Source: Pelobacter propionicus DSM 2379
Lineage (GTDB): Bacteria > Desulfobacterota > Desulfuromonadia > Geobacterales > Pseudopelobacteraceae
Assembly: GCF_000015045.1 (NCBI RefSeq)
Contig: NC_008609.1
Span: forward strand, 3,895,501-3,959,500
DNA: 64,000 bases
Direction of reading: 5' to 3'
Shown: one piece after another, positions 31,684 to 50,690 of the stretch
How positions within the stretch are numbered: position 1 is the stretch's first letter
Layout: each line of letters starts with the position of its first letter
Program-made: the position numbers and the translations under genes
Notes under the pieces: model-generated
What the model was told of the DNA's origin: nothing
The model's input: only the letters and a program-made list of their open reading frames with translations
Database searches by the model: none

Positions 31684-33533
31684 ATGAAACTTTTTTTTGC
31701 CGCCCTGGCCCTACTCTTCGGACTCCATAGCAGTACTCCACCGGTTTTTGCCGAAGACCTGGTTGTGTCGCGCGCCGTGCTGGAAGACAAGGCCGGAACG
31801 CTGACGATCGCCGATGCGGCGAGAAGCACGTTCAAACCGGTCGGACCCACGCTTTCCAGGGGTTTCACCAACTCCGTGTATTGGCTGCGCCTGCGTGTCA
31901 GGGCACCCGCCAAAGAGAGCGAGGTGGATCTTTTTATCCGCCAACCCTTTCTCAATGAAATCCGCCTTTACGAAGCCGATGCGGGGCCCCCGTCAAACTG
32001 GAAGACGCGCGTGACCGGCAACCACTACGCGTTCAGCGAGCGTGACCGCGCCAGAAGTTCCCTGGGATTTGTCGTCAATGTTACCTCCCCCGAGGCCACG
32101 TACTATCTTCGTCTGAAGACCAGGTCCACGTTGCAGATGAGTGTGGAAGCCCTGCACCCGGACGAGGCGGAACATAAGAGCCATCAGTTCGATCTGCTGG
32201 AAGTGTTTTTCGTGACCTCCATGCTGTTGTTACTGCTCTGGGCGATCCACAGCTATCTGCTGGACCGGTTGCCGGTGGTTGGGCTGTTTGCCATTCACCA
32301 AGCAGTGTACACACTGTATGGCATAGCCATTACGGGCTACCTGGCTCCCCTGCTTCCCGCCGGTTTTCCTCAACTGGCGGATTTATCCACCGCTGTTTCC
32401 TACTGCGCGGTAAGCTTCACGACACTGCTCTTCTGCCGGACTCTGTTCACCCCCTATCAGCCACCTCCGCTGCTGATGCGCGGGCTCAACCTGTTTCTGC
32501 TGGTGTTTCCTTTTCAATTGGCGGCAATGGCTTTTGGATATACTACCTTTGCCGTCATCCTCAACGCCGTGCTGATCCGGGTCAGCTGGTGGTATTTTGT
32601 CGTCATGACCTTTACCCTCCGTAAGGAGCACTCGCCAAGCCGGCGTTTGCTGCAACTCTTCTTCGTTGCAATTACGATTATTTTCACCCTGTTCTGGCTT
32701 TCCAGTCACAGCAGCCCGTTAGGCCCGATCAACAATATGGGCAGACAGATACTGATTGCCAACGGCCTTATCATTGGCGGTTTGTTTGCCATGATCTTAA
32801 ACTCGCGTTTACGCAGCTTGCAGCAGGAGGCGCAGCAATCCGCCCTTGACCTTCTCGTGGCACAAAAAACCCTTGAGCTCGAACGCACTCTCAAGGAAAA
32901 AGCAGAGATACAGGCACGCACAGACTACCTGACCGGGCTCCACAACCGACGTCACTTCATTGAACAGGCCGAGCATGAGCTCGCGCGTGCGGTGCGCTAC
33001 CATAGGCCGCTATCGCTGCTTATGATTGACATTGACCATTTCAAATCGATCAACGACACCTGGGGACACAGCACCGGCGACGCAGTTCTTCGGAAAGTGT
33101 CACTCCTGATCCGGAATACGCTTCGCAAGGTGGATATCATGGGTCGTATGGGTGGAGAAGAGTTCGCCGCAGTTCTGGTTGAAATCGACGTGGAGCAAGC
33201 CATGCAGGTGGCGCAACGTCTCTGCACGACGGTCGCGGAAACCAGCTTCGCAAGGTGGATATCATGGGTCGTATGGGTGGAGAAGAGTTCGCCGCAGTTC
33301 TGGTTGAAATCGACGTGGAGCAAGCCATGCAGGTGGCGCAAAGTCTCTGCACGACGGTCGCGGAAACCAGCATAGTTGTGCAGGAGGGCGAATCGCTGCA
33401 GGTCACCATCTCGCTTGGACTCACAGGATTGAAGGGACGCACCATCACTTTTGACAGCTTGCTGAAGGAAGCAGACCTGGCCCTGTACCGGGCAAAGCAA
33501 TCGGGACGCAACAGAGTTGTGTGCAACGATTAG
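31684..33533 (+). pseudogene. 7TMR-DISM diguanylate cyclase disrupted by a 125-bp tandem duplication
   Basis: The intact ancestor would be 574 residues: signal peptide, periplasmic 7TMR-DISMED2 domain (about 30-150), seven helices (about 180-380), coiled coil, and a GGDEF domain with DYLTGLHNRRHF, DIDHFKSINDTWGH, I-site RKVD and GGEEF. A 125-bp tandem duplication beginning around the GGEEF region shifts the frame, so the present product ends at 33375 with about 45 unrelated residues; the true C-terminus (ISLGLTGL, EADLALYRAKQSGRN) is in another frame and ends at 33533. Removing one copy restores a single frame. ATG 31684 begins the signal peptide but lacks a clear ribosome binding site. Confidence 0.85.
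33121..33370 (+). repeat. 125-bp tandem duplication inside the GGDEF domain
   Basis: 33121-33245 is repeated at 33246-33370 with one visible difference (CGCAACGTC against CGCAAAGTC). The unit begins CTTCGCAAGG and ends GAAACCAG. 125 is not a multiple of three, so two copies shift the frame. Confidence 0.95.
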
Positions 33534-33978: not shown

Positions 33979-34055
33979 TGGTCGGGATGACTAGATTCGA
34001 ACTAGCGACCCCCTGCTCCCGAAGCAGGTGCGCTACCAGGCTGCGCTACATCCCG
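33979..34055 (-). tRNA. tRNA-Pro (CGG anticodon)
   Basis: A 77-nt cloverleaf on the minus strand: acceptor CGGGATG / CATCCCG, D-loop with GCCTGGTAGCGC, anticodon stem CCTGC/GCAGG with loop TTCGGGA (anticodon CGG), T-loop GTTCGAATC, and encoded CCA (33979-33981). The gene is the insertion site of the island: its 5' half from the anticodon loop onward is duplicated at 44376. Confidence 0.95.
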
Positions 34056-34270
34056 AAGAACCACTTTTTTAGCCGTTCCGAAGAGTTTTGTCAACAGGAA
34101 AGACGACCGCTCAGCCTGGAGAACAGGCGAAAATGTGCCGCCACGGACAGTTTGCCCATGTACTACAAGAATTTTTCGTAACGCCCATTCAGCCCACCAT
34201 TGCTCGGCAATCCCCGCACCATCAGCCATACCCGGCAAACGCGCACAATCCGGACCGGAGGGGGACCGGT
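34016..34270. repeat. Left att-flank repeat (tRNA-Pro 5' half plus upstream DNA)
   Basis: 34016-34071 is identical to 44376-44431. The next 200 bases align without gaps to 44431-44630 at about 78 percent identity (counted by eye). Conserved blocks include the tRNA promoter and TACAAGAATTTTTCGTA. The 56-bp part is the likely attachment core. Confidence 0.9.
34066..34094 (-). promoter_or_regulatory. Promoter of tRNA-Pro
   Basis: TTGACA (34089-34094, minus strand) and TAAAAA (34066-34071) with a 17-bp spacer. The same promoter is conserved in the right-hand copy (TTGACA about 44449-44454, TAAAAA 44426-44431), so both halves of the split locus carry promoters. Confidence 0.75.
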
Positions 34271-34583
34271 AGTCAGAGTGATCTGGTGGTCGTGGCCGCT
34301 GTGTTGTCACTAACGGTTAAGTCACAATACGGGGTTGTCGTTGATTTACACCGGGGGATTTGTATTTTTGAATAATATTTCATGCATTCTCATTTGACAA
34401 GAGTCGTGGTCAATCATATAGTACGTTTAATTTGCGATTTCTTACACGCTCTCTTCAACTGGACAGCCCAAAATGCTTCTTGAAGAGACTTTAATTTTCC
34501 AACGCGGATTTGTCTATTAGCGAGTGGATAAATACGTTTAACATAATTACTGTAAATAATTAATCGGTAAAAAAGGTGTAATC
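34271..34583. other. AT-rich non-coding DNA at the left end of the island
   Basis: After the att-flank homology ends the base composition drops sharply to AT-rich. No convincing coding frame is seen before the ribosome binding site of the gene at 34584; two ACCGG motifs occur near the inner edge of the repeat (34254, 34265). Confidence 0.5.
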
Positions 34584-34967
34584 ATGGAATATGAATACAA
34601 AGTAATAGATGTTGCTGATGGTGCAATTAGCTCTCTACTGCTCGGAGAAGGAAGAATTGAAACAAACGTACTTCAAGCGTACATAAATGCAATGGCGTCA
34701 GAGGGCTGGAGATTGGTATTTATGGTAAACGTGATGCAGCGCCACCTTGTTGTTGCTGATCGTGAAACTCTAATGATCACGTTTGAGCGTCGAGTACCTG
34801 AGTCAGAAAAGGCTGCTCGTGCAGCACGTTGTATTGATGACGTAATTGCTGCAGAAGATGAGGCCAAAAAGAAAGGGTATGTAGCAGCGGCTGGAGCTAC
34901 TGGGATGGCAGTTGTCGGTAGCGGATTAATCGGCGCATTAGTAAATAGCATTGGTAGCGATGAGTAA
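34584..34967 (+). CDS. DUF4177-like small protein with C-terminal hydrophobic segment
   Basis: A 127-residue protein. The N-terminal 75 residues (MEYEYKVIDV, then INAMASEGWRLVFMV, then ETLMITFERR) resemble the DUF4177 beta-alpha fold of unknown function. The C-terminus (GYVAAAGATGMAVVGSGLIGALV) is Gly/Ala-rich and could insert in a membrane. It starts at ATG 34584 after AAGGTG and is followed 22 bp later by another short membrane-associated gene, so the pair may form a unit. Confidence 0.6.
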   Translation: MEYEYKVIDVADGAISSLLLGEGRIETNVLQAYINAMASEGWRLVFMVNVMQRHLVVADRETLMITFERRVPESEKAARAARCIDDVIAAEDEAKKKGYVAAAGATGMAVVGSGLIGALVNSIGSDE

Positions 34968-34989
34968 TTACAGTTTAAAGAGGTGAATA

Positions 34990-35445
34990 ATGGACTTGAA
35001 TGAAAAAATAGCCGCACGCAGGAGAGAATTGGCTGCTGAGGACGAAAAGACCAAGCAAGCAGAGAAAGCTAGAGAGGCAGAGCAGCAAAGATATGTTCGT
35101 AATGAAGCAATCAAACAACTTTCAGAAAATGGAATTGAATTGCCTGATTACAAGGGAATTCCTTTGGAAAAAGTTGATGCAGAAGTAGAAAAACTTCTTG
35201 ATAAGGCAGCCAGTGATAGAATGACTTCAGGTGAAAACACAACACTTATAGTACTTTTTGTTTTTGGCTTATTGAGCTTTTTAATTACATGGTGGTTGGG
35301 TGTTTTTTTCATAATAGGTGCTTTTGTTTACTCTTCTAAAACAACAAACCGATACAAGGAGCAAATTAAAGCTGAAGGAAAGGTACAACTCGAACAGAAC
35401 CAGCGGAATTTGGAAGAGCGATTGAAAAACTCTTCGTCATTTTGA
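34990..35445 (+). CDS. Coiled-coil protein with two membrane helices, unknown function
   Basis: A 151-residue protein. The first about 75 residues are charged and helical (RRRELAAEDEKTKQAEKAREAEQQ), then two hydrophobic helices (TTLIVLFVFGLLSFLITWWLGVFFIIGAFVY), then a second charged helix. ATG 34990 is preceded by AAAGAGG. It follows the DUF4177-like gene and shares its AT-rich codon use. I do not recognise the family. Confidence 0.6.
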   Translation: MDLNEKIAARRRELAAEDEKTKQAEKAREAEQQRYVRNEAIKQLSENGIELPDYKGIPLEKVDAEVEKLLDKAASDRMTSGENTTLIVLFVFGLLSFLITWWLGVFFIIGAFVYSSKTTNRYKEQIKAEGKVQLEQNQRNLEERLKNSSSF

Positions 35446-35691
35446 GTGGTACCATTGAGGCCATTTGGAAAACTAGACTACCTTCCAATTTCACCGTGGT
35501 CATATTCAATATTGCGCGACACCAATCAACTTGTTCAATATCAGGGCGTTACAGGTAACTTAGTCTAACAGGGGGGTAAATATTTGACTCTTGTCTGTAA
35601 GCCAGCTTATTCAGTAACCGCCCAAATGACGAAGAACCCATATCACCCTCACGAAACAACGAAGAACAAATTTTAAAGGAAATCTTACCTC

Positions 35692-36378
35692 ATGCCTGCT
35701 AACACATCTAAGTTACTTGTCTTGCTTGTCCTTCTCACCGTAGCGTCCAATGCTCAAGCTACGTTATATGATCGTGGCGGTGGCTTGCTATACGACGATG
35801 TACTTAACATCACTTGGCTTCAGGACGCTAATTACTCCAAGACAAGTGGTTACGACACAGATGGGTTGATGAACTGGAGTTCAGCGAACACTTGGGCTAA
35901 CACTCTTTCCTACTATGACAGTGTACGCAATGTAACGTACGATAACTGGCGCCTAGCAAGTTATACACAGCCAGGACGCCCTGTTCATTATAGTTGGTGG
36001 TATAGTGTTTCCGATTGGATACCAGATGTCGATAGTGAATTGAGCTATATGTTTTATTCGAATCTTGGACAGAACCACTCTGGCATTTTCGGCAATTATC
36101 AAATCGGAGGTCAAAGAAGCGTCGGGCTGGTGAACAACATTCAATCAGACAGATATGTGCTTGGTGATACCGCGCCTGATGGATACCGGAATTTAATACC
36201 ATGGGCCTTTTTATTCAACGACGGTGAACATATTGAATTTAACGAATATGCAAAAGCATATGCTTGGGCTGTACGTGACGGAGATGTTGCATCCATGGCT
36301 TCGCCTGTTCCAGAACCTTCAATAATGATCCTTCTAGGTGGTGGTCTTGCTGTTCTTGCCTTCTGGAGAAGAAAGTAA
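35692..36378 (+). CDS. PEP-CTERM anchored exported protein with DUF1566-like domain
   Basis: A 228-residue protein: signal peptide (LLVLLVLLTVASNAQA), a domain with ITWLQDANYS, WSSANTWANTLSYY and YDNWRLAS that resembles the DUF1566 / Lcl lectin-like family, AWAVRDGD near the end, and a C-terminal VPEPSIMILLGGGLAVLAFWRRK sorting signal. Proteins of this kind are handled by an exosortase encoded elsewhere and released into extracellular polymers. ATG 35692 is preceded by AAAGGAAA about 13 bases upstream. No exosortase lies on the island, so it depends on the host. Confidence 0.8.
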   Translation: MPANTSKLLVLLVLLTVASNAQATLYDRGGGLLYDDVLNITWLQDANYSKTSGYDTDGLMNWSSANTWANTLSYYDSVRNVTYDNWRLASYTQPGRPVHYSWWYSVSDWIPDVDSELSYMFYSNLGQNHSGIFGNYQIGGQRSVGLVNNIQSDRYVLGDTAPDGYRNLIPWAFLFNDGEHIEFNEYAKAYAWAVRDGDVASMASPVPEPSIMILLGGGLAVLAFWRRK

Positions 36379-36464
36379 ATTCATATTCAATAAACTATCT
36401 AGACAATAAAGAATTTCCAAAATCAGTTAGTCATACTTTATTCAATCAATACAAAGGAACAACA

Positions 36465-36761
36465 TTGAAAAAATATATTATAATAATACTTGCCTTACTA
36501 TCATTATTCTATATTTGCGGTTGCTCTAATAGTGATTATATGACTGAGGAAGAATTGAGCGAAATGAGTCTATATTCACTAAATGAGTACGCTTATAAGC
36601 TTGAAGGTAAAATGTTAAGCTTGGATGGAGTACCTAGTGAAATAAAATCATCAATAGTACTAAGAAGATCTTGTACGCACCAAAATAGTAGATTACTCAC
36701 AGAATACATCATATCTCTACAAAAATTAATTGTTACGCACAAGGCTATTATTAATCACTGA
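36465..36761 (+). CDS. Small lipoprotein of unknown function
   Basis: A 98-residue protein starting at TTG 36465 with AAAGGAAC upstream. It has a lysine-led hydrophobic signal and a lipobox-like LFYICGC ending in the cysteine to be lipidated. The mature part is polar (EEELSEMSLYSLNEYAYKLEGK). Codon use is very AT-rich. No family recognised. Confidence 0.6.
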   Translation: MKKYIIIILALLSLFYICGCSNSDYMTEEELSEMSLYSLNEYAYKLEGKMLSLDGVPSEIKSSIVLRRSCTHQNSRLLTEYIISLQKLIVTHKAIINH

Positions 36762-37105
36762 AATAAAAGCGAGGTTAAATATTAATATTTAAAACCTAGC
36801 ACGAAAACTAATCTTAGCCTTTTACCAAAATTAGAAGTGCATGGTGCTCAAATAATTATTATTTAACTGAGCCAGACTTTAACAAAATATAATATCAGAT
36901 CAAAGGAGCAATTTATTTTATCATAACAAAAATAATACTCACAGAATAGATTTTGAACAATAAACGCTCAAACTGACTAGGCTATCATCAAGTTGTAATA
37001 AATTTTTTAATGATCTAACCAGCTCTGCGCACCCCTCTTAAGCCCCTTGGCCATCCCGGTCATGGGGCTTTTTTGTTTCCTCAAACCTCACAGAAAGGAG
37101 ATTTT
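36762..37105. other. AT-rich non-coding gap ending in a terminator-like hairpin
   Basis: No coding frame is visible from 36762 to 37035. At 37040-37074 AAGCCCC pairs with GGGGCTT (37064-37070) across a 17-base loop and is followed by TTTTTT. The hairpin lies about 30 bases before the next start codon. Confidence 0.55.
37040..37074 (+). terminator. Terminator-like hairpin before the gene at 37106
   Basis: Stem 37040-37046 with 37064-37070, then a T run. It is the first of four such hairpins placed just upstream of small genes in this part of the island. Confidence 0.65.
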
Positions 37106-37357
37106 ATGAACCACAACGAAATTATCTCTCATCTTTCCGTTCTCGACGTCAACCCCTCAGAAATCATCTATTCAATCACCATGGAAACTATTCTGTCCGC
37201 GATAGTGCAGCGCTTGGGGGAGGATGCGCTCACCTTGTCCTTAGAGGATCTGCACTTGGCACGAGAGGAGGTGAAGGAGGCCCTCAACCACAATCTGGAT
37301 GAACGGGACTACATAGATATGGGTCTTGATTCCTGGGAAATCATCCGGAATCTGTAA
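37106..37357 (+). CDS. Small acidic protein, unknown function
   Basis: An 83-residue soluble protein (MNHNEIISHLSV to DSWEIIRNL), helical and acidic, with no motif I recognise. ATG 37106 has AGAAAGGAG seven bases upstream, a strong site; the frame open from 37073 is not needed. Preceded and followed by terminator-like hairpins. Confidence 0.6.
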   Translation: MNHNEIISHLSVLDVNPSEIIYSITMETILSAIVQRLGEDALTLSLEDLHLAREEVKEALNHNLDERDYIDMGLDSWEIIRNL

Positions 37358-37390
37358 GAAAAACGTCATACTATCGAGTTGTGTCACTGG

Positions 37391-37404
37391 AGCCCTTCGG
37401 GGCT
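37391..37404 (+). terminator. UUCG hairpin before the gene at 37439
   Basis: AGCCC-TTCG-GGGCT followed by ATTTCTATTTC. The U-tract is weak, so termination may be partial. Confidence 0.5.
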
Positions 37405-37438
37405 ATTTCTATTTCAACCACAAAGAAAGGAAAAATCT

Positions 37439-37603
37439 ATGTTCATGTCATTCATAATCTTTGTCGTAATGGGCATCATACTCTTCAATCTTGGCGCATT
37501 ATCAATCATGGTCGCACTCTTGCTACCGGCCTTCAAAGCAGCTTTGTTGATCATCGTACTACTGGCAGGGGTACTCATATGTCTACGGCGTAGAAGCAAC
37601 TAG
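37439..37603 (+). CDS. Small membrane protein (54 residues)
   Basis: ATG 37439 after AAAGGAAA. Nearly all hydrophobic (FIIFVVMGIILFNLGALSIMVALLLPAF, then LLIIVLLAGVLICL) and ending in a basic tail RRRSN. Two membrane helices are likely. Size and shape would suit a holin, a type I toxin or a superinfection-immunity protein, but nothing specific supports one of these. Confidence 0.5.
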   Translation: MFMSFIIFVVMGIILFNLGALSIMVALLLPAFKAALLIIVLLAGVLICLRRRSN

Positions 37604-37631
37604 AAGCCGACATATCAATCAAATTCACAGG

Positions 37632-37651
37632 CCACCTTCGGGTGGTTTTTT
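37632..37651 (+). terminator. UUCG terminator before the gene at 37672
   Basis: CCACC-TTCG-GGTGG followed by TTTTTT. A good small intrinsic terminator placed 20 bases upstream of the next ATG. Confidence 0.75.
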
Positions 37652-37671
37652 CGTTTCAGGAGACAAAATAA

Positions 37672-38037
37672 ATGACACAGCCTATATGGTTCAAGGATCT
37701 TATAAATCGCTTGGATACCGATTTTCTGGAGGACTATGAGGAACGCGCTGCGATCATGCAATTTGACGGTGGCCTATCTCGGGATCATGCCGAATGTCTG
37801 GCTCTGCTGAACATTTTCAGGAAGCATCCCATGGCACAGGCTGGCTTGAGTGTAGTCAAGGCAGAACTGGATGGCGACACCGAATTCATTGTAACTACCA
37901 ACAAAGAGTCGGCATGCCAGCTCCTTTCCGCTATTGGATGCGAAATCACAGTGCAAAACGACCTGGCTTCCGTGGTGGATTCAGAATTTGATGGCACTGC
38001 AAGGCTCGCAAAGTTTGCCATCTTATTTGAAGGATGA
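37672..38037 (+). CDS. Hypothetical protein of the island (121 residues)
   Basis: Starts at ATG 37672 after CAGGAGAC. The segment YEERAAIMQFDGGLSRDHAECLALLNIFRKHP resembles a short helical motif seen at the ends of many mobile-element primase and hypothetical proteins. The rest (LSVVKAELDGDTEFIVTTNKESACQLLSAIGC) is unassigned. It is followed 19 bp later by a small membrane protein gene, probably cotranscribed. Confidence 0.55.
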   Translation: MTQPIWFKDLINRLDTDFLEDYEERAAIMQFDGGLSRDHAECLALLNIFRKHPMAQAGLSVVKAELDGDTEFIVTTNKESACQLLSAIGCEITVQNDLASVVDSEFDGTARLAKFAILFEG

Positions 38038-38056
38038 GAAAAGAGGAGATTTATCA

Positions 38057-38254
38057 ATGGGTGTAATACTGTTTATTGCCATAATGGTGCTTCTCTTCAA
38101 GTTCACAGAGGTGGACAAATGGATTTTATGGTTTGTAGTACTTATTGTATTGCTTACAAGATTAGGGTGCAATTTCGGCATGCTAGGAATCATGGTCCTG
38201 ATTGTAGTTTTCAAGGTACTGAAAGATATATGCACGTATAGCCGCAACAGATAA
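38057..38254 (+). CDS. Small membrane protein (65 residues)
   Basis: ATG 38057 after AGAGGAG. Two or three hydrophobic helices (VILFIAIMVLLFKF, WILWFVVLIVLLTRLG, FGMLGIMVLIVVFKVL) and a basic tail. Shares the compact cassette layout of its neighbours. Function unknown. Confidence 0.5.
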   Translation: MGVILFIAIMVLLFKFTEVDKWILWFVVLIVLLTRLGCNFGMLGIMVLIVVFKVLKDICTYSRNR

Positions 38255-38278
38255 TTGGCGACTGGTTAACCTGAATCT

Positions 38279-38311
38279 GGCTGGTATCTCAATCGAGGTA
38301 TCAGCCTTTTT
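38279..38311 (+). terminator. Terminator before the antirestriction pseudogene
   Basis: GGCTGGTATCTC (38279-38290) pairs, with G-U wobbles, with GAGGTATCAGCC (38295-38306) around AATC, followed by TTTTTATTTC. Confidence 0.7.
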
Positions 38312-38322
38312 ATTTCTGGCAA

Positions 38323-38723
38323 GTGAATAGAAAGCAGATTTGTATGACCATACTTAGAGTAAGCCTGAATAATACCAACCGAATAAACTACACCGTCAAG
38401 ATCTTTGGTGCTCACTTCCCATTCCGACTGGAGCCGTTTATATATGACATGGCTGGGGGCTGTCAAAAGATTACCATGGTGGGTACTGGTATATGTACTC
38501 TCTAAGTAACGGAGGATTCTATTTGGCACCCGAATCTGATACCCCTTTTCAAGTGTCATGCATGAACGGATACGAAGGGACACTGTCAGCGGATGCTCTG
38601 GGCATCACGGTTTGTATGTACGCATACAGCCAGTGGTCATTTTCCGACATCCCGGAATTGGCTGAAGCATGTGCCGGGCAGTACCACCTGCTGAGGGAGT
38701 ACATGTTCGAGCACCGGAGGTGA
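38323..38723 (+). pseudogene. ArdB/KlcA-type antirestriction protein gene with a frameshift
   Basis: The second part (YSLSNGGFYLAPESD, GYEGTLSADALGI, REYMFEHRR) is a clear match to KlcA/ArdB, small proteins that block type I restriction. The first part (HFPFRLEPFIYDMAGGCQ, from ATG 38344 or GTG 38323) is the matching N-terminal half in another frame. The break is at CAAAAG, near 38463-38468: adding one A to the run restores KDYHGGYWYMYSLSNGG. A one-base deletion is most likely; a programmed minus-one shift or a sequence error is possible. As written the protein is truncated. Confidence 0.75.
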
Positions 38724-39104
38724 AGGGGATACTGGGGGCGATCGACTGACCAATCGCTAGGAGAAACTGAAAAACTGCGGTTCTGGAACACTGTGTCTAG
38801 CGACGAGAACTGAAATCCTGCGAAGTTGGAGCGTAGGGGGCTAACACCTCGAAAATATTAATTTTTTAGACATAAGAGATGGCGCTTCCCCAGTTTTTCA
38901 GTTTTATAGGTCCCCGCGCTCCCCCCTCTTTTTCCCACCTGTCACTCGGTGCCACCTTTCATTTATTTACATCAAATTTCAGGTAACTCGAAAAATAGAT
39001 TGGCAGACAAATATAGCCTATTCACCCACTTAGTTTTGGTTTGTTTGCTACCTGTTAACTTAAACCATAAATACAGAAAGCAATAGCCAAATTTCAATTA
39101 CAAT
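38724..39104. other. Non-coding region with inverted repeats, candidate replication origin or regulatory site
   Basis: No gene is seen. TCGCTAG (38754-38760) pairs with CTAGCGA (38796-38802), enclosing AACTGAAAAACTG (38766-38778), whose 13-bp exact inverse CAGTTTTTCAGTT lies near 38892-38906; a related GAACTGAAAT follows the first stem. The rest is AT-rich. Its position between the accessory genes and the replication gene pair suits an origin, but this is inference. Confidence 0.4.
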
Positions 39105-40001
39105 TCAGTCGTTGCTCATATTACTGTCAAGACATGGCCTTTTATCATATATAACATATTTTTTTGTTTTTGGTTGACGTGTTGGGTGTAATTCTATCTT
39201 GTTTTTATTATCAAATACCCAATCTACTACTTGTTTTCCTGAGTAATATTTAAAATCATCACGTATCAGTATCACGTGCTTATTTAATCCATTTATCAGT
39301 GCCTTCAAAAATTTTATCTGCTTATCTTGTGTATATTTACCCTTAATAAACATCCAGTGCTCTTTACCTTTATTGCTAATAACGTATATCAACGATAGTT
39401 TCGGTGATCTGGAATTATTTTCAGATGTCGGTTTTTTGATAGTGTCAACTGATTTTTTGTTTATCCAGTAAATGCCAGCATTTTCTATTTTAGCGCGTTC
39501 TCCAATTTTTTCGTAATTTTCATCGAGCCATTTTTTGACATGTTTAGAGCACAGCTCTTTTGGCTGCTGATGCCGTTTCATCGATGAAAAACCCCATCGT
39601 TCAAGATATTTAGCCACACATCGTACTGATAACCTGACTCCACACTTCTGTTCAATCAATTGCATGACTGCATCCCGATTCCACAAGAATAGTTTTCGTG
39701 AGGAGCCCCTGATACCAAGTTGCCATGGTCGCTTCGTGTAGAAAATGTTGCGTAATTCGTTTTCTTGCTCCTCAGTCAATGATCGACCTGTACCTAGTTT
39801 TCTGCCCCGTTGCGCAGGTTTGAGTGCTGATTCACCCCCTGCAGTGTAATGTTTGATCGCAGCATTCACAGCAGGCCAACTCAAGCCACTGGCCTCAACT
39901 ATCTTCATCACAGGGACCTTCTCTTCGTAAAGACGAATCACCTGCTGACGCCTTGCAAGCAATTCCTCTCTCGATTGTTTCCTGGCATCGATTTTTTCCA
40001 T
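39105..40001 (-). CDS. IS630-transposase-like DNA-binding protein lacking catalytic residues
   Basis: A 298-residue protein. The N-terminal 130 residues are two helix-turn-helix units of the IS630 type (IRLYEEKVPVMKIVEASGLSWPAVNAAIKHY; CGVRLSVRCVAKYLERWGFS). The C-terminal half follows the IS630 DDE fold (SPKLSLIYVISNKGKEHWMF, HVILIRDD), but the first Asp site reads YWINKKSVD and the usual SPxLNPxE block with the Glu is replaced by HPTRQPKTKK. The frame is intact and no inverted repeats are seen around it, so it looks like a retained regulator rather than a live IS. It diverges from the primase gene across palindromic DNA. Confidence 0.65.
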   Translation of the reverse strand: MEKIDARKQSREELLARRQQVIRLYEEKVPVMKIVEASGLSWPAVNAAIKHYTAGGESALKPAQRGRKLGTGRSLTEEQENELRNIFYTKRPWQLGIRGSSRKLFLWNRDAVMQLIEQKCGVRLSVRCVAKYLERWGFSSMKRHQQPKELCSKHVKKWLDENYEKIGERAKIENAGIYWINKKSVDTIKKPTSENNSRSPKLSLIYVISNKGKEHWMFIKGKYTQDKQIKFLKALINGLNKHVILIRDDFKYYSGKQVVDWVFDNKNKIELHPTRQPKTKKYVIYDKRPCLDSNMSND

Positions 40002-40010
40002 GGCAAAAAA

Positions 40011-40065
40011 ATATTACAATTTGCGTCTAAAATCAATTATAAATCGTGCCATATAATTGTAATAT
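40011..40065. promoter_or_regulatory. Palindromic operator-like sites between divergent genes
   Basis: Two nested inverted repeats: ATATTACAATT (40011-40021) with AATTGTAATAT (40055-40065), and CAATTATA (40034-40041) with TATAATTG (40052-40059). They begin 10 bases from the start codon of the IS630-like protein and would overlap its promoter, as expected for autoregulation. Confidence 0.55.
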
Positions 40066-40194
40066 AAATAATGAATATCAACCTTTTGCAGAACCCGTTA
40101 CATTAAATTTATAGCACATAAAATTTGGACTCTGTAAATTATTCCGATATGTTGCGATCGTATTGCTACGAAATTATTTACAGGAGTCGAATGT

Positions 40195-42399
40195 ATGTAC
40201 ACACAAGATGAACAAAGCAAGCAATCTACCTCGCTGATTGATCCCAGAGACATAGTAATTCCATCACGAAAAAGGACCCCACAAACTATGGGGGTTTCTC
40301 AAGCAGGTTCGCTAGAACCTGAAATAGTCAGTAAAGAGTGCGATTTCTCACATGTCACTAACGCCGAATTTATAGCTGCTGTTTTTCCACAACTACCCGA
40401 AGGCGCATTTGCTGCGGTCTGCTCAAAAGCGGGGGATCCAACTGAAGGTGGATGGTTCGCAAGGAAAGTTGATTCCAATATTACAGAGCTTTCAGCCAGC
40501 AACAACAATTACATATCTTGCTCAAGCTTCTATCCTGGCAATGAAGGTATCTTTAATGTCCGCAAGCCTCAGTTTGCAGCATGCCATTTTCTGATGCTCG
40601 ATGATCTCGGCACAAAGGTTCCGTTGGAGAAACTCGGCGATTTTGAATTGTCCTGGCTGATCGAGACGAGCCCTAATAATTTTCAAGGCGGGATTATTCT
40701 AACTTCTCCAATTACCGAGGGTAATGTAGCTGAAGAGTTACTCAAATCTTTGATTGCAGCAGAGCTCTGCGATGCGGGTGCTTCCGGCCCACTGACTAGA
40801 TGGGCACGCCTACCAAATGCAATCAATGGCAAACCCAAACACAACGATATAAACGGGGCCTCATTTTGTTGCCGATTGATTCAATGGCATGCTGAGAAGC
40901 GTTACACGGAACAAGAGATTGTGGAAGGCCTAAAATTAGAACTGAGACAAAAGAATGAGCCCAAAACGGCTATCGAACGTCAACACAACCTGGGTTTTGA
41001 CAAACAAATTGACCAAGAAGCAAATGATACCTCGATTCAAAAGATAGAAGCACTGCTGAATAGAATTGATGCTGATTGTGGTTATGATGACTGGCTGCAT
41101 GTGGGCATGGCTGTATTCCATGAAACGTCAGGTAGTGATGAAGGCTTGGCTCTGTTTGATCGTTGGAGCAGCAAAGGCAGCAAATACAAGGGAATCAAAG
41201 AAATCGAGTACAAGTGGCGTTCATTTCGTTTTGATGAGTCCACCCCCGTGACCATCGGCACACTGATCAAAATGGCCCGCGATGCTGGTGCTGATGGCTT
41301 TGAGCCTTGTGGATATGAGGTAATAAGCAACACCAATGAAACATCTTCAAACAGCGTAGATATAGGCAACCCGCTGGCAAAGTATTTTCTGAATAACGTT
41401 GATGAACTCGAAGAAAAGGCGGTGGAACAAGTGCCGATTTTGGGCAATATTGTGCTCTTAGGACAATCAACAGCTATTTTCGCCAAACCAAACACAGGCA
41501 AAACTCTGCTCTCTCTTTATCTTATTGTCCAAGGCATTAAGGCAGGAATGTTTGACCCGGCGAAGCTCATATATATCAATATGGACGACGACAGTAATGG
41601 CCTTGTTGTGAAGGCAAGACTCGCAGAAGAATATGGTTTCAAAATGATTGCTGATGGTCATAAGGGGTTTGAGGCGAATGTATTCCGAGAGGCCGTTATG
41701 AATATGACCACAACCGACTCAGCCCGAAACGTGATCATTGTCCTTGATACACTAAAGAGGTTCGTAGACACCATGAACAAGGGTAAAAGCGCATGTTTTA
41801 CCAAATTCATCCGCCAATTCACCCTCACTGGTGGCACTGTCATAGCACTGGCCCACACCAATAAGAAACCAGGCTCCGACGGCAAACCAGTTTACTCCGG
41901 AACCGCTGACATTGTAGATGACTTTGACTGTGCATATACCCTGTTTAGCATTTCAGAGCAAACTGATGCAAACCAAAAGGTAGTTGAGTTCACCAACATT
42001 AAGCGCCGTGGAAACGTCGCCTTGTCTGCTTCCTACAGCTATTCTCAGGAGAGCAATATCTCATACTACGAACGCCTGTTGTCGGTGCAAGAGGTGGATC
42101 CAGAACAGTTGGTTCCAATCAAACACGTAACTGAATATAAGTCGGATACCGAAATGATTACAGCCATTTCAAACTGCATCACAGATGGTATCAATACCAA
42201 AATGAAGCTGGCAGAGGAATCTGCTAGGCATGCCAAAGTTAGTAAAAGAACCGCCCTTAGGATCATTGAGAAGTACACCGGAGATGATCCAACCATCCAC
42301 CAATGGTCCTTTGTGGTACGCGAGCGTGGAGCCAAGGTTTTCAAGTTGCTAGAGCGCCCCACAGAGCACCCACCAGCCCCAGCCATCACCACCCCCTAG
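40195..42399 (+). CDS. Primase-helicase (RepB-like primase, PriCT_2 and RepA-type ATPase domains)
   Basis: A 734-residue replication protein. Residues about 60-235 resemble an archaeo-eukaryotic-type primase of mobile elements (CHFLMLDDLG, then SWLIETSPNNFQGGIIL, then GPLTRWARLPNAINGK). Residues about 280-360 are a PriCT_2 domain (DADCGYDDWLHVGMAVFHET). Residues about 410-640 are a RecA-fold ATPase with Walker A AKPNTGKTLLSLY and Walker B NVIIVLDTLKRF. It should prime and unwind the excised island. ATG 40195 has ACAGGAG upstream. Confidence 0.8.
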   Translation: MYTQDEQSKQSTSLIDPRDIVIPSRKRTPQTMGVSQAGSLEPEIVSKECDFSHVTNAEFIAAVFPQLPEGAFAAVCSKAGDPTEGGWFARKVDSNITELSASNNNYISCSSFYPGNEGIFNVRKPQFAACHFLMLDDLGTKVPLEKLGDFELSWLIETSPNNFQGGIILTSPITEGNVAEELLKSLIAAELCDAGASGPLTRWARLPNAINGKPKHNDINGASFCCRLIQWHAEKRYTEQEIVEGLKLELRQKNEPKTAIERQHNLGFDKQIDQEANDTSIQKIEALLNRIDADCGYDDWLHVGMAVFHETSGSDEGLALFDRWSSKGSKYKGIKEIEYKWRSFRFDESTPVTIGTLIKMARDAGADGFEPCGYEVISNTNETSSNSVDIGNPLAKYFLNNVDELEEKAVEQVPILGNIVLLGQSTAIFAKPNTGKTLLSLYLIVQGIKAGMFDPAKLIYINMDDDSNGLVVKARLAEEYGFKMIADGHKGFEANVFREAVMNMTTTDSARNVIIVLDTLKRFVDTMNKGKSACFTKFIRQFTLTGGTVIALAHTNKKPGSDGKPVYSGTADIVDDFDCAYTLFSISEQTDANQKVVEFTNIKRRGNVALSASYSYSQESNISYYERLLSVQEVDPEQLVPIKHVTEYKSDTEMITAISNCITDGINTKMKLAEESARHAKVSKRTALRIIEKYTGDDPTIHQWSFVVRERGAKVFKLLERPTEHPPAPAITTP

Positions 42400-42774
42400 G
42401 CGGCACCCCGGTTGGGGGCCAGGTTCGCAGTTTGGCAGTTTCTCAGGCCCCGCAGGTCTGCACCTGCCGCCCCCTTACTGGCCCCCTAACGTACCCCTTT
42501 GTGTACCCCTTAGGGATTTTCTCCAAAACAGCAACTGCTTGAAAAACAAAGAAAAGACAAGGTGAAATAATGGTTGTACGCAATTTCAGTTACCATCAGA
42601 TTATGCCATTAGGTCGTCAACCTGAAACTACATTCTGTGTATCCGGACCGGCCGAGGACCAGAGCACCCTTTAGATTTTGCACAAGATGTTACAAGGCAA
42701 TGATCCCCGGCCTTAGTGCATCTGCTTACAAAGGGGATGCGCCAAAAAAAAATAATATCGAGAAAGGAAAACAA
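42400..42774. other. Non-coding gap between primase and integrase genes
   Basis: GC-rich at its start (CGGCACCCCGGTTGGGGGCC), then a possible hairpin CCCTAA/TTAGGG (about 42484-42515) that contains two GTACCCCTT repeats and could terminate the primase transcript. A TCCGGACCGGCCGA sequence (about 42639-42652) resembles the ACCGG motifs near the island's right end. No gene is seen; the frame open upstream of the integrase has no ribosome binding site. Confidence 0.4.
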
Positions 42775-43983
42775 ATGAAGCCATACAGATCAAACACCAG
42801 CAGAAAATTTCCGTTCACTAAAAAGGCCATAGAAGCACTGCCAGCACATGATCCAGCAAGTCCATCCAGGGAAATGGAGTATGCCGACATAGAATGCATT
42901 GGCCTTCACCTGAGGGTATCCAAGAATGGTCGCCGCTTTTTTCAGCACAGATACCGATACCTCGGAAGAAAGATGTGCCTGTCACTGGGAGAATTCCCTG
43001 CGGTTAGCGTACAGGATGCCCGATCGCGGGTGGCAGAACACAAGGCGCTTCTGGCAAGGGACAAAGATCCTGCAGCAGAGAGAGGAAAAGTACGTGCCGA
43101 TCTGACGTTCGAAGAGTTTTCGACCCAGCACTACCTACCACACGCCAAGGCTCACAAACAGACCTGGGACGACGACAAGAACCAGATCGAGCGCCGACTG
43201 AATCCGATTCTGGGTAAACTTCGACTGCAGGCAATCACCCCCAGAGATGTGGCGATGGTTCACTCCAAAGAGAAGGAAAGAACCACTGCTTGCACAGCAA
43301 ACCATCTACTGGCCACTCTGAAGAGAATGCTGAATCTTGCCGTCAAGTGGGGACTGCTGGAGAAAAATCCTGCTGGTGGTCAGGAAAAGTTCAAGGAAGG
43401 TCCACTGAGAGAGCGCTACCTGAGCAAGGAAGAATTGCCGAAATTCCTGAAGGCACTGGAAGATCAAGATGACCTTCTCTCGGTGGCTGCATTGCGAATG
43501 CTGCTGTACACAGGTTGCCGACGTGAAGAGATCATGTCTCTACGCTGGGAAAATGTACGCCTTGATGAGGAGCGTATTTTCTTACCCAAAACAAAGAATG
43601 GCCGAAGCAGGACGGTACACCTGAATGCCAGGGCAAAAGAAGTGATACAGGACCTTCAGGCACGGAAAGATCAGGAGGACCGTACTCGTGGCAGTGAATA
43701 TGTATTCCCTTCACGACAAGGCACCAAGAAGGGATACATCTATGACCTGAGAAAACCTTTTGAGAAGGCATGCCTGAATGCCGGAATAGACAACTTCCGC
43801 ATACATGATCTCAGACACACATTCGCCAGTATGGCAGTCAGTTCAGGTGCTGACCTCTACGCCGTACAGCGGCTATTGGGACACCAAGATATAGCCATGA
43901 CCCAGAGGTACGCACATTTGAATGCTGATGATCTGAAGAAAGCTACAGAGGGTGTATCAGAAATGTTTGATCGTGCTGCCTGA
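42775..43983 (+). CDS. Tyrosine-type site-specific integrase
   Basis: A 402-residue phage-type integrase: N-terminal arm-binding DUF4102 domain (FTKKAIEALPAH, LHLRVSKNGRRFFQHRYRYLGRKMCLSLGEFP), core-binding domain (about 105-190), and catalytic domain with TGCRREEIMSLRW (Arg), HDLRHTFASMA (His-x-x-Arg) and LLGHQDIAMTQRYAH (His and Tyr nucleophile). The residues are all present. ATG 42775 has AGAAAGGA upstream; a longer frame from 42637 lacks one. It lies some 400 bp from the right attachment site, the usual place. Confidence 0.93.
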   Translation: MKPYRSNTSRKFPFTKKAIEALPAHDPASPSREMEYADIECIGLHLRVSKNGRRFFQHRYRYLGRKMCLSLGEFPAVSVQDARSRVAEHKALLARDKDPAAERGKVRADLTFEEFSTQHYLPHAKAHKQTWDDDKNQIERRLNPILGKLRLQAITPRDVAMVHSKEKERTTACTANHLLATLKRMLNLAVKWGLLEKNPAGGQEKFKEGPLRERYLSKEELPKFLKALEDQDDLLSVAALRMLLYTGCRREEIMSLRWENVRLDEERIFLPKTKNGRSRTVHLNARAKEVIQDLQARKDQEDRTRGSEYVFPSRQGTKKGYIYDLRKPFEKACLNAGIDNFRIHDLRHTFASMAVSSGADLYAVQRLLGHQDIAMTQRYAHLNADDLKKATEGVSEMFDRAA

Positions 43984-43993
43984 CATTTGAGTT

Positions 43994-44028
43994 CCCCCTA
44001 TCCGTTGTCACTGGGTAGGGGGCTTTTT
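43994..44028 (+). terminator. Terminator of the integrase gene
   Basis: CCCCCTATCC (43994-44003) and GGGTAGGGGG (44013-44022) form a stem with a 9-base loop, followed by CTTTTT. Confidence 0.85.
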
Positions 44029-44323
44029 GCGTGCTAAGACTGTTGAGCGTCACACTTTCAATTTTTTCGAAGGGTTACAGGGAGGCTCTGGAGCAAGCGT
44101 AACGGAAAAGGACCGGAAGAACCGGAGTAATTTTGCCCGATCAGCCAGCATGAGCGGACCTCTCATTTTTCACAAAGCCATGCTACACAAGGAATTGTAC
44201 GGATAGGGGTGGACCGGCAGTTACCGCACCGGGAGAAAAACAGCTAACTATCTGCAATTATGAGGCGACAGGAGAACCGGAGGGGTACCGGAGGACCGGA
44301 CAAGTAGTGGGGACAAAACTAAA

Positions 44324-44352
44324 AAACCTAACCATTTTATATGGTTAGGTTT
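44324..44352. terminator. Bidirectional terminator at the island's right boundary
   Basis: AAACCTAACCAT (44324-44335) and ATGGTTAGGTTT (44341-44352) form a perfect 12-bp stem with a 5-base loop. A/T runs lie on both sides. It would also stop transcripts entering the island from the duplicated tRNA promoter. Confidence 0.8.
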
Positions 44353-44375
44353 AAATTGATTGTATGAAATTACGT

Positions 44376-44630
44376 CTCCCGAAGCAGGTGCGCTACCAGG
44401 CTGCGCTACATCCCGAAGAACCACTTTTTTAACCGCTTCAAGGAGTTTTGTCAACAGGAAAGACGCGCGGGCGGCCTACGAAACAGGCGAAACCATGCCC
44501 TGACGGACCGTTTCCCCATGTAGTACAAGAATTTTTCGTACCACCCATGAATCCCACCACCACGCGGCACTCCCCGCGCCATCAGCCATGATCAGCAAAC
44601 AGGCTCACTCCGGACCAGAGGGGGACCGGA
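44376..44630. repeat. Right att-flank repeat (truncated tRNA-Pro copy)
   Basis: 44376-44415 is the 5' half of tRNA-Pro on the minus strand, cut at the anticodon loop; the repeat then includes its promoter and about 200 bp of upstream DNA. It has no 3' half, so it cannot make a tRNA. See 34016-34270 for the alignment. Confidence 0.9.
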
Positions 44631-44871
44631 CGGACCGGAGAGCGCACCTGTCCGGGCCATGGGTGTCCTGCCCCCACCCAGCAGCACGTCACCCCCCTCA
44701 TCCGCCCCTTCGGGGCACCTTCTCCCCACGGGAGAAAGGATACCAATCACACCCTCTCCCGGCGGGAGAGGGTGGCAGAAGGCCGGGTGCGGGGATAAAG
44801 GCAGCGTTTTAACTCTGTTGCATTTACCAAACCGACAGTACTGTCGTCATAATGTCTTCCGAACCATCCAT
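44631..44871. other. Intergenic DNA with palindromic REP-like units
   Basis: Contains TTCTCCCCACGGGAGAA (about 44720-44735) and a near-perfect palindrome CACCCTCTCCCG/CGGGAGAGGGTG (44750-44774). Such units are commonly dispersed in bacterial genomes and could serve as a terminator for the Tim44-like gene. No coding frame supported. Confidence 0.5.
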
Positions 44872-45825
44872 CTATTGGCTGATTGCCGACAGGCGCCACG
44901 GGTTGTTGCCGACAGACCTGGTAAAGGTCCAGTACTCTTCGAACTTCACCGGCTCCGACTTGCTGCCGGACACCACCGCGCCGGTGGCGTCATCGGTCGT
45001 GTAATCGAACAGGTTCGCGTGGACCAGGGCGGTGACGTAATCCTGGCCCGATTCCTGCCACACCTCCGTGATTTCAACCTTCCTGACGGCAATGTTCTCC
45101 AGCCTGTTGACCTGTCTGTCCCGCAGTAGCCGGTCCACATCCTCCTGGAATATCCGCTTCATCTCGTCCGTCAGGAGTGAGGAAACCGGTGCAAGATCAC
45201 GATTCATCCAGGCCCCCTGGATTCTGAAGAAGATATCCATCACCGCGTCGTTGAAACTGCTTTCGTCAAAAGTGGGGTCCATCTGGCGAACATGGGAGAT
45301 ACCGCTCTCCACATCGCTTGAAGCCGGTACTTCGGCTTGGTATCCGTAAGAAACTGGGGCTACGGCTTCACGTTGATAGCCCCCCTGCCCGGAGGGGGTT
45401 GCCAGGCTGAGTTCCCTTTTCTTCTTGATAAACCGGTAGATCAGATAGCCCAACCCGGCAAGGAGAATAATTTCAAACATACCGATACCGCCGCCTCCTA
45501 AACCGCCCATTCCGCCACCTGCTCCGGCAAAACTGCTGAACAGCATACTGCCCAGCATGCCCCCCATGATACCGCCGGCCATGCTCCTCATGAAGCCGCC
45601 ACCTGCCTGCTGCTGAAATGGGCTGGGGGCAGGAGCAGCTTGTTGCTGCCGTGTCTGGTGTGGCTGGGAGTAATTCGATGCCGGTTTGGAATAGCTGCGC
45701 GATCCACGGCTTCCGGATGAGCGGCTTCCGCCAGCCCTGGCTTCGGCATTCAGCTCAAGAACCGTGACCGACAGCATCATGATGGCTGCCATTAGCGTGA
45801 AAATCCTGACGATACTTTTATTCAT
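44872..45825 (-). CDS. Tim44-like domain membrane protein
   Basis: A 317-residue protein: signal-like hydrophobic N-terminus, low-complexity Ser/Arg/Gln-rich stretch (about 30-75), a Gly/Met-rich segment (GGGFMRSMAGGIMGGMLGSM), a membrane helix (GMFEIILLAGLGYLIYRFI) and a C-terminal Tim44-like domain (about 185-317; FDESSFNDAVMDIFFRIQGAWMNRD, EYWTFTRS). The bacterial role is unknown. ATG 45825 has AGGAGC upstream. It follows the UPF0182 gene by about 50 bp. Confidence 0.82.
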   Translation of the reverse strand: MNKSIVRIFTLMAAIMMLSVTVLELNAEARAGGSRSSGSRGSRSYSKPASNYSQPHQTRQQQAAPAPSPFQQQAGGGFMRSMAGGIMGGMLGSMLFSSFAGAGGGMGGLGGGGIGMFEIILLAGLGYLIYRFIKKKRELSLATPSGQGGYQREAVAPVSYGYQAEVPASSDVESGISHVRQMDPTFDESSFNDAVMDIFFRIQGAWMNRDLAPVSSLLTDEMKRIFQEDVDRLLRDRQVNRLENIAVRKVEITEVWQESGQDYVTALVHANLFDYTTDDATGAVVSGSKSEPVKFEEYWTFTRSVGNNPWRLSAISQ

Positions 45826-45874
45826 CTTCTCTGCTCCTTTGTGTGATGTTCGGCCCATGGACGTTGTTGTGCTG

Positions 45875-48550
45875 CTACCGGGCCATTTTCTTCAGAATCT
45901 GTTCCAGGCTTCTCAATTCTTCGCCATAGGCGGCCCAGTTGCCCTGACGTTGCAAAGTGATGGCCTTCTCATAAATGCTCACAGCTTCCTTGGCAAGCGT
46001 GGCAGGCGATGCTTGTGTGTCTGCCGAAACTCCGCTGGTTGCAGCAGGTGCGGCTTTTTTCCCGCCGAAAATCCTTTGCAGCGCCAGTTCCAGGTTTTCC
46101 TCCATGACCAGTTGATCTCCGAAGGCGACAATTACCCTCTTCAATTCCGGAAGGCCGGCTTTGTCTGCCGCAAGAAAGAGCGGCTGAACATAAAGCAGCG
46201 ACTTTTCGATGGGTATTACCAGCAAACTGCCCCGGATGGCCTCGGAGCCGCGTTGACTCCAGAGGGTCAACTGCTGAGAAATAAAAGAATCCTGGTTGAT
46301 GCGCGCATCGATCTGTTTCGGTCCGTAGATCAGGCGGTCACGCGGGAAGGTGTAGGCACGGATTTTTCCGTACTGCGGTTCATCGCAGCGGGCCGTAAGC
46401 CAGGCAGCCAGATTGTCCCGCTTTGAAGGGGTAAACGGCAGCAGCAGTATGTACTCCTCCGCTTTTTCACCCGGCAGCTTCATGATCGTATAATACGGCT
46501 CCATCGCCTTATCGCCGAGCACGGGAATCTCCCAGAGGTTTTCCTTGTTGTAGAATACCTTGGGGTCGGTCATGTGGTAGGTGGCGAACATGGCTGCCTG
46601 GATCTGCAGCAAATGGTGCGGGTAGCGAACGTGCTTGCGCAGATCGCCCGGCATTTCCGCCATTGGTTTGAAGAGTTTCGGGAAGATCCGCCCATGAACC
46701 TTGAGAATGACGTCATCCGGATCGCTGATATAGAAGTCAACAGAGCCGTCATAGGCGTCCACAACCGTCTTGACTGAATTCCGGATGTAATTGATGCCGC
46801 CTTTGAGCGGCCTTGAATAGGGGAGCCGGGTCGAATGGGTGTAGGCATCAATTATCCACTTGAGCCGTCCCTTTTGATCCACCACTAGGTAGGGATCGCT
46901 GTCAAAATGGAGGAAAGGCGCTATGGTTCTGATTCGTTCGTTAATGTTGCGGTTGTAAAGGATGCGACTCTCTTTGGTGATATCCGAGGAGAGCAGAATC
47001 TTTTCCGTTCTGAATTTTGCGGCAAAGAGCGCTTTTTTCAGGAGCGAATCCATCGGCACCCCGCCTGTGCCGGCATACGTCGTAGTGATGTTGCCGGTGG
47101 CGGTCGGGTAGCTGAACTCCGGCACGTTGGTTTTGACGATCACATACTCATTGGACAGCTCGCCGTAATAGATTTCAGGTCTGCTTACCTTGATATCGGC
47201 CAGACTGACGGCTGGAATATCCTTGACGAAAAACTCGGGTAGTCCCTCTTTGCTGATTCTGCTGACCGGACCGAACGTAATGCCATTGCCGTGGGTGAAA
47301 ATCAGGCGCTCGTTGATCCAGTTCTTGCTGGGCAGATCGGCGTAGGAAAGTTCACGCGGCGACAGCATGACCTGCGAGTAGCGCCCGTTGACCATGTAGC
47401 GGTCATTATCCACATCGAAAAACTTGTAGTAGGTCCTGATCTGCTGTAGCTGGCTGTACGTCTTCAGCAGCGGGGCATGGTCCCATAGTCTGATGTTTTT
47501 GATGGTTGCATCGTTGTTGGCTATATCAGCGGCGGTAAGTTTCGTATCAACATCGAAGGGCACCGTCTCGATTTTTTCCAGATCATAGCCGAAACGGGTT
47601 GCGGTAATGTTATTCATTATGTAGGGCGTCTCAAGGGCCATCTCGTTGGGCGCGACCTTGAATTTCTGCAGAACACCCGGATAGACACGGATGCCGAGCA
47701 TGTAGAGTGCGACCACAATGGCAGGCGCCAGCAGCGCCATCCGCCAGACGCCTTTCCAGATCCCGATCGCCAGCATGGCTCCCGCCAATGGTGTCAGGAA
47801 CGTCAGAACTCTGTAGGTCAGCAGTCGTGAGTTGACATCCACATACCCCGCGCCATAAAAAGCACCGTTATCGGCATACAGCAGCTTGAAGCTGTCCAGA
47901 TAGAAGCCCGCGGCGACGGCGCACGCAAAGATTCCCACCAGAACAGCCAGATGACGGCGAACTTTTTCATCAATAGCCACACCTCGCTCGGTCAGCAGTA
48001 TGCCACCCCGAACATAATACACAGCCGTTGCCAATGCCGCCGCAGCCAGAATGATAAAGCCCGAGACCCCCTTGACCGCATCCAAAAGCGGCAGACTGAA
48101 CAGGTAGAACCCCACATCCTTGCCGATGAGCGGATCCACGGTTCCAACAGTCAGGCGATTGGCGAAGAAGAGCAGATCTTTCCATTTCATGGCGCCCAGA
48201 TTGCCCGCAAGAAGCGCCAGGACAAAACTGACGAGCATGCTGACCGGCTTACAAAGACGAACCGCTTGATCCCGGTTTATCCCGAGGTTGCCTGCTCCCA
48301 GGAGATGCATGCCGGACAGGGGAAACTGCGCCCTGTTCGCAACGTGAAGGTTTATCTGTACAAACAGGAACAAGAGTCCGCCGAAGAGCAAACCGGCCCC
48401 AGTCTTTGCATACAGAGTCGTGGTGAAGACCGATGAGAATCCCGTTTCGTCGAAAAACAGCCAATCGGAATACAGATTCAGGAGATACGAAATCAGTGAC
48501 AAAAGTACTGAAACCAGTATCAGGAGGGGGAAAAATTTGTTCTTTAACAT
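45875..48550 (-). CDS. UPF0182 family membrane protein
   Basis: An 891-residue protein with about seven membrane helices in the first 320 residues and a large extracytoplasmic part. Family signatures include YSDWLFFDETGFSSVF, ETPYIMNNITATRFGYDL, LPFTPSKRDNLAAWLTARCD and INQDSFISQQLTLWSQRGSE. A Pro/Ala linker and helical tail close the protein. Function is unknown. ATG 48550 has GGAGG five bases upstream; the frame open to 48577 is not needed. Confidence 0.85.
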   Translation of the reverse strand: MLKNKFFPLLILVSVLLSLISYLLNLYSDWLFFDETGFSSVFTTTLYAKTGAGLLFGGLLFLFVQINLHVANRAQFPLSGMHLLGAGNLGINRDQAVRLCKPVSMLVSFVLALLAGNLGAMKWKDLLFFANRLTVGTVDPLIGKDVGFYLFSLPLLDAVKGVSGFIILAAAALATAVYYVRGGILLTERGVAIDEKVRRHLAVLVGIFACAVAAGFYLDSFKLLYADNGAFYGAGYVDVNSRLLTYRVLTFLTPLAGAMLAIGIWKGVWRMALLAPAIVVALYMLGIRVYPGVLQKFKVAPNEMALETPYIMNNITATRFGYDLEKIETVPFDVDTKLTAADIANNDATIKNIRLWDHAPLLKTYSQLQQIRTYYKFFDVDNDRYMVNGRYSQVMLSPRELSYADLPSKNWINERLIFTHGNGITFGPVSRISKEGLPEFFVKDIPAVSLADIKVSRPEIYYGELSNEYVIVKTNVPEFSYPTATGNITTTYAGTGGVPMDSLLKKALFAAKFRTEKILLSSDITKESRILYNRNINERIRTIAPFLHFDSDPYLVVDQKGRLKWIIDAYTHSTRLPYSRPLKGGINYIRNSVKTVVDAYDGSVDFYISDPDDVILKVHGRIFPKLFKPMAEMPGDLRKHVRYPHHLLQIQAAMFATYHMTDPKVFYNKENLWEIPVLGDKAMEPYYTIMKLPGEKAEEYILLLPFTPSKRDNLAAWLTARCDEPQYGKIRAYTFPRDRLIYGPKQIDARINQDSFISQQLTLWSQRGSEAIRGSLLVIPIEKSLLYVQPLFLAADKAGLPELKRVIVAFGDQLVMEENLELALQRIFGGKKAAPAATSGVSADTQASPATLAKEAVSIYEKAITLQRQGNWAAYGEELRSLEQILKKMAR

Positions 48551-48732
48551 TGTAACCTCCAGAAGAAGGGTGCCCATGGTTGGGCTCCCCTAGGGTACTG
48601 CCGCACAGATTCAGAGATGAACGTCAGTATGGGTTGTCGTGCGTCGAGCGATCCGGTTCCGGAGGCGCCCCCAAAAAACCCGCCACAAGTATGCATGTGA
48701 TTTTTTACCTGCCCCTCCTTTTTGTATGGTGG

Positions 48733-50650: not shown

Positions 50651-50690
50651 CGTGATTACCTCCGACGATTGGGGTATCGCCGGGGGTAAT

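Follow-up and report, generated by a model that had tools for sequence, protein, structure and literature searches.

Integration of mobile DNA into a tRNA gene is usually viewed as harmless, since the gene keeps its own promoter. The only tRNA gene in a 64,000-nt stretch of the Pelobacter propionicus DSM 2379 genome (hereafter, the window) raises the question of what becomes of that promoter when the integrated DNA lies on the 5′ side. ARAGORN places this gene, tRNA-Pro(CGG), at 33979–34055 on the minus strand, and a gap-free direct repeat of 254 nt, with 83% overall identity, connects 34016–34269 with 44376–44629. The repeat has a sharp edge at the C preceding TCCCGAA, the anticodon-loop sequence (CTCCCGAA); to the left of this point the flanks match at 21 of 60 positions, which is not above chance. 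From the anticodon loop the repeat runs through the tRNA 5′ half, identical in both copies (40/40), and a promoter (TTGACA, a 17-nt spacer and TAAAAA in each copy) for ~170 nt more, and similarity drops to background past ~34270/44630. Identity is 59/60 over the first 60 nt, which cover the tRNA 5′ half and the −10 region, and ~78% further out. A sequence-only reading of the window had described both a repeat of the 5′ half beginning in the anticodon loop and ungapped upstream homology that keeps a TTGACA/TAAAAA promoter, and both descriptions held.

Within its own genome, the repeat matches only at its two known places, and no site outside these two copies has the −35 region motif (GTCTTTCCTGTTGACAAAA; 0 control hits), indicating that it is not the general form of tRNA promoter in Pelobacter propionicus. 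A sigma-70 scanner called no promoter, because it demands T at the final −10 position; the repeated promoter is presumably active. We refer to it, as an element-borne promoter different from the native one, as type A, and to the native promoter, with nadA directly adjoining the tRNA gene, as type N. The features at the two repeat copies are as follows.

33979–34055, minus strand: tRNA-Pro(CGG), rebuilt from a chromosomal 3′ half (33979–34015) and an element-derived 5′ half (34016–34055); ARAGORN call, repeat boundary in the anticodon loop, and a 3′ flank with terminator that is conserved in relatives with an empty site
34016–34269, no strand: element left end (tRNA 5′ half, promoter and further end sequence), from the repeat
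34066–34094, minus strand: type-A tRNA promoter, element-borne, with −35 TTGACA (34089–34094), the 17-nt spacer and −10 TAAAAA (34066–34071); its type is tied to site occupancy in relatives
44376–44629, no strand: displaced 5′ half with type-A promoter and end sequence; the repeat, the promoter type and a native flank that lies elsewhere make it most likely that an older element at the same site had its left end here

A GGDEF gene (31666–33375) adjoins the tRNA gene; two near-identical 125-bp tandem copies at 33120–33371 shift its frame, and this diguanylate cyclase is probably broken by them.

The element itself, 34016–44375, is a 10.36-kb AT-rich island on the 5′ side of the tRNA gene, with 34–51% GC inside and 54–64% in its surroundings. 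An island spanning 33979–44630 had been proposed earlier; those coordinates hold, but the element ends at 44375 and leaves 44376–44630 outside.

34584–38723, plus strand: cargo, comprising a DUF4177 protein, a PEP-CTERM protein (35692–36378), small ORFs, a conserved small protein (37672–38037) and an anti-restriction-like protein (38493–38723) (Pfam, PHROGs)
39105–40001, minus strand: IS630-like transposase (Pfam DDE_3 and HTH), probably a passenger insertion
40195–42399, plus strand: RepB primase/PriCT-2/AAA replication protein (Pfam)
42637–43983, plus strand: tyrosine integrase, intact ORF (Pfam PF00589, E 3e-37; Arm-DNA-bind_3; R, HxxR, H and Y motifs; tree)
44324–44352, minus strand: terminator-like hairpin at the element right end, 26 nt from the crossover (fold z −4.5; terminator scan), facing transcription from the displaced promoter

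The integrase ORF ends ~390 nt short of the right-end crossover, close to the displaced fragment and remote from the intact tRNA gene. The element may excise actively. The 37672-type gene is also found in islands occupying the same tRNA site in two relatives (G053 and G044). The main ORFs, scanned with Pfam and PHROGs, include no virion or conjugation genes, and the element was accordingly not classed as a prophage or ICE. ACCGGA-like motifs, counted near element ends as candidate arm sites, were suggestive in some ends and absent in many.

The arrangement corresponds to the 5′-fragment islands of the Islander database, which make up 159 of 3919 islands, the other 3760 having a 3′ fragment (PMC4383910), so that the rarity claimed earlier for an element on the 5′ side is borne out. 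As in those islands, an intact tRNA gene is accompanied by a displaced 5′ fragment upstream in the same orientation, the crossover lies in the anticodon loop, an integrase (PF00589) is encoded between gene and fragment, and the length of 10.36 kb falls within 2–200 kb. A conventional 3′-type tRNA island would leave a displaced 3′-half fragment, and the window has none elsewhere. Unlike the Islander 5′-fragment islands, this element carries a segment with a complete promoter in it, and promoter replacement is documented here against empty sites in many relatives.

That documentation comes from ~50 relatives compared for occupancy of the tRNA-Pro(CGG) site and for promoter type. In the 21 genomes with an empty site, 52–132 bp separate the nadA start from the 5′ end of the tRNA gene, and the promoter is native in type, approximating TTGACA-18-TATAAA in the g6 and g1 genomes. 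In the 24 genomes with an occupied site, nadA is displaced by 0.7–23 kb, and 22 of them have a type-A promoter (Fisher p = 1.5e-9 for promoter type versus occupancy, a test that ignores relatedness). Occupancy changes at least eight times on the NadA tree, five of these changes falling on well-supported branches; phylogenetically independent pairs nearly all point in the same direction, but their number does not suffice for significance. A different family has ubiD as the native neighbour; there, two genomes (G062 and G081) have an empty site with ubiD at +175, and two others (G065 and G075) have a type-A promoter with ubiD 5–7 kb off. Occupied sites therefore use a promoter unlike the native one, as expected had an element-borne 5′ half and promoter rebuilt the tRNA gene, which was the sequence-only proposal. 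Its further suggestion of simple capture from the native flank of a related genome is not supported by the comparison, since the type-A promoter belongs to an element lineage with members in several genera and in at least one further family.

Individual sites add detail. The sole type-A site adjacent to nadA, in G127, has a nadA gap of 176 bp and probably had an island that has since been lost. G018 is occupied, yet its promoter resembles the native type of its own genus; just upstream of nadA (L119, ~5777) it has a degenerate displaced tRNA-Pro 5′ half with a native-type promoter, and may represent a recent promoter capture. The other occupied exception, G015, has a promoter of ambiguous type. 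In G128 and G129, one contig carries a full tRNA gene with a type-A promoter, and on another, 133 bp from nadA, lie a displaced 5′ half and the native promoter, a copy in decay in which both the tRNA half and the −35 are mutated; G132, whose NadA is nearly identical to theirs, has an intact empty site. Native promoter remnants also adjoin nadA in G036 and G040. G136 has a 2.4-kb island with type-A promoters at both ends and an integrase remnant 70% identical to the integrase in the window. At most occupied type-A sites the displaced 5′ half is unrecognisable, and many have no integrase, so that island history there is read from the insertion and the promoter.

Two further sites differ in layout. 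In G007 (L046, C13), a perfect displaced 3′ half of tRNA-Pro(CGG) (oriented 4673–4722) lies ~10 kb off on the 3′ side, and this genome seems to combine a type-A promoter on one side of the tRNA gene with a conventional island on the other. In G071 (L104), tRNA-Pro(CGG)-like copies at 8404 and 10494 are separated by 2 kb, and one of the two has a damaged acceptor stem.

Had the tRNA 5′ region been duplicated in tandem long ago, with mobile DNA inserting later by a route other than site-specific integration, the 17% difference between the repeat copies would be accounted for. However, the repeat starts sharply in the anticodon loop, an integrase lies beside one copy, and the same geometry recurs in G128, G129, G136, G044 and G053, making such a history scarcely credible; the version in which both copies are native, which the sequence-only reading had proposed to check against empty sites, is excluded by those sites. 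Alternatively, the island could have brought a whole tRNA-Pro gene whose right-hand copy later lost its 3′ half, in keeping with the terminator hairpin at the right end and a short TTGATT-GTATG stretch there that loosely resembles the tRNA 3′ flank. Immediately to the left of the displaced copy in G128 and G129, a hairpin ending GGTTAGG is followed by ~26 nt and then the crossover, the same kind of end as in the window, and like hairpins lie 25–27 nt from the crossover in G128, G129 and G084. An exact search of 277 genomes for the window's own hairpin beside the crossover matched only the window; the hairpins of relatives differ in sequence. From hairpin to crossover, the 26 nt bear just as little resemblance to tRNA in G128, G129 and G084, which fits an attP arm of fixed sequence better than decay in each genome separately, and none of the displaced fragments examined in relatives shows the 3′ half intact at the right end. 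We therefore regard import of a whole gene as very improbable, and favour an element that carries the 5′ half only.

If the element brought the 5′ half at 34016, the copy at 44376 might be expected to be the native one, and the sequence-only reading took it as such. The native flank, however, survives farther away, beside nadA.

57482–57532, no strand: native tRNA-Pro promoter remnant beside nadA, aligned to a same-genus empty site (L053; z = 11 versus shuffles)
57398–58447, plus strand: nadA, quinolinate synthase (Pfam NadA), native 5′ neighbour of the tRNA gene, which it adjoins in 21 relatives; real start near 57533

The remnant lies 23.4 kb from the tRNA gene and has a mutated −35, CGTTAA in place of TGTCAA. 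The nadA promoter region of G001, a genome of the same genus with an empty site, aligns from window position 57482 on. A decayed native tRNA 5′ half was sought beside nadA in the window and did not rise above shuffles. Since the native promoter remnant lies beside nadA, the 44376 copy is not the native flank; as judged from the alignments, neither repeat copy is native, and the 44376 copy itself is of element type. The simplest reading of the order is that the older insertion came first and the present element second, in which case 44376–57480 would have begun as an element.

The genes at 44630–57480 are ordinary (Tim44-like, UPF0182, TerC, M48 peptidase, epimerase, histidine kinase), and no integrase was found among them. 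The Tim44/UPF0182/TerC/M48 cluster (44872–52751) sits between the tRNA fragment and nadA; in relatives this cluster is chromosomal and located elsewhere. UPF0182 is present a second time (73% identity) at another place in the Pelobacter propionicus genome. These genes suit a different account, in which the 44376 copy is native flank, type A is the native promoter here, only one element (34016–44375) ever inserted, and the genes at 44630–57480 arrived by rearrangement between flank and nadA: 44630–52751 is a conserved chromosomal cluster in relatives with host-like GC, and the integrase expected of an element is missing from 44630–57480. Yet the remnant of the native promoter, identified by alignment with the empty site of the same genus, lies next to nadA at 57482, and type A accompanies displaced nadA in 22 of the 24 occupied genomes and is nadA-adjacent only in G127. 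We consider this account unlikely, and retain the reading of two successive insertions.

The closest integrases, with 81–83% identity, are those of Geomonas propionica (L033) and Citrifermentans bremense (L034), encoded beside the same tRNA gene. These two elements share with that of the window the tRNA gene, the crossover, the integrase polarity and a related RepB-type primase (52–59% identical, beside the integrases). They differ in lying on the 3′ side, with a native 5′ flank: as conventional 3′-type islands they carry the 3′ half, displaced fragments of which lie on other contigs (L151, L152), and the host promoter is kept, whereas the element in the window carries the 5′ half. The integrases of the window, G136, L033 and L034 form one well-supported clade, within which crossover and integrase polarity are constant and the carried gene half differs. 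Integrases of 46% identity that have a tRNA gene nearby lie by tRNA-Lys or tRNA-Arg, on the 3′ side; viral contigs yielded no relative of the window integrase, and phages and plasmids only distant ones (<36% identity among the matches listed).

Taken together, we think it very likely that 34016–44375 is an integrative element with an attP-borne 5′ half and promoter that takes over transcription of tRNA-Pro(CGG). In the mechanism we propose, the tyrosine integrase would recombine a 7-bp anticodon-loop sequence of the tRNA gene with an attP in which the tRNA 5′ half is joined to a full tRNA promoter. Integration would join the chromosomal 3′ half to the element-borne 5′ half and promoter, and push the prior 5′ half and promoter to the far end, beside the integrase gene. 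Because the two 5′ halves are identical, the tRNA sequence would be unchanged and the promoter would now be that of the element. The right-end hairpin probably stops the transcript of the displaced promoter from running antisense into int and, in the circle, would also halt the element's own tRNA promoter. The element lineage would have taken over the promoter of tRNA-Pro(CGG) repeatedly; in the window, the element would have inserted beside the left end of an earlier one, with the original promoter decaying beside nadA.

According to a review, a rebuilt bacterial tRNA gene keeps its original promoter with few exceptions, and archaeal pTN3-type integrases, which use the integrase promoter, are exceptional (PMC8371274; PMC5495485). 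Like the element in the window, pTN3/TKV4-type integrases use the tRNA 5′ half and part the rebuilt tRNA from its original promoter (PMC5495485, PMC8371274), but their integrase gene is split and the tRNA comes under the promoter of the integrase. The element in the window brings a dedicated promoter of tRNA type, its att site lies outside int and the ORF is intact, so this is not a suicidal integrase. Integration at the 5′-distal part of a tRNA gene, the reverse of the usual, is attributed to Zhao and Williams 2002 in PMC6563490, and as cited there it has the same reversed geometry. In tRNA-dependent lysogeny of actinobacteriophages (PMC10865867), a mobile element likewise supplies an essential tRNA, but the phage carries the whole tRNA and the host gene is not rebuilt; in the window the host gene is rebuilt, and the rebuilt tRNA is the only one, which sets the element apart from that class. 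The literature searched, with incomplete coverage, contained no report of tRNA promoter replacement in Geobacter relatives.

On balance, we lean towards a broader interpretation: in several genera, belonging to more than one family, a lineage of promoter-carrying integrative elements would repeatedly have replaced the native promoter of a single-site tRNA, and irreversibly so. The CCG-decoding proline tRNA of the host would then depend on element DNA, with the promoter kept even where the island has decayed; the arrangement would have arisen when, inside a single integrase clade, the attP homology arm switched between the 3′ and the 5′ half. At tRNA-Pro(CGG) it is the promoter that the element takes over, and empty, occupied and decaying sites coexist in close relatives. 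This series of sites allows us to ask whether promoter capture alters tRNA supply and whether capture fixes the element in the population, and it also bears on how an integrase lineage switches the gene half that it carries.
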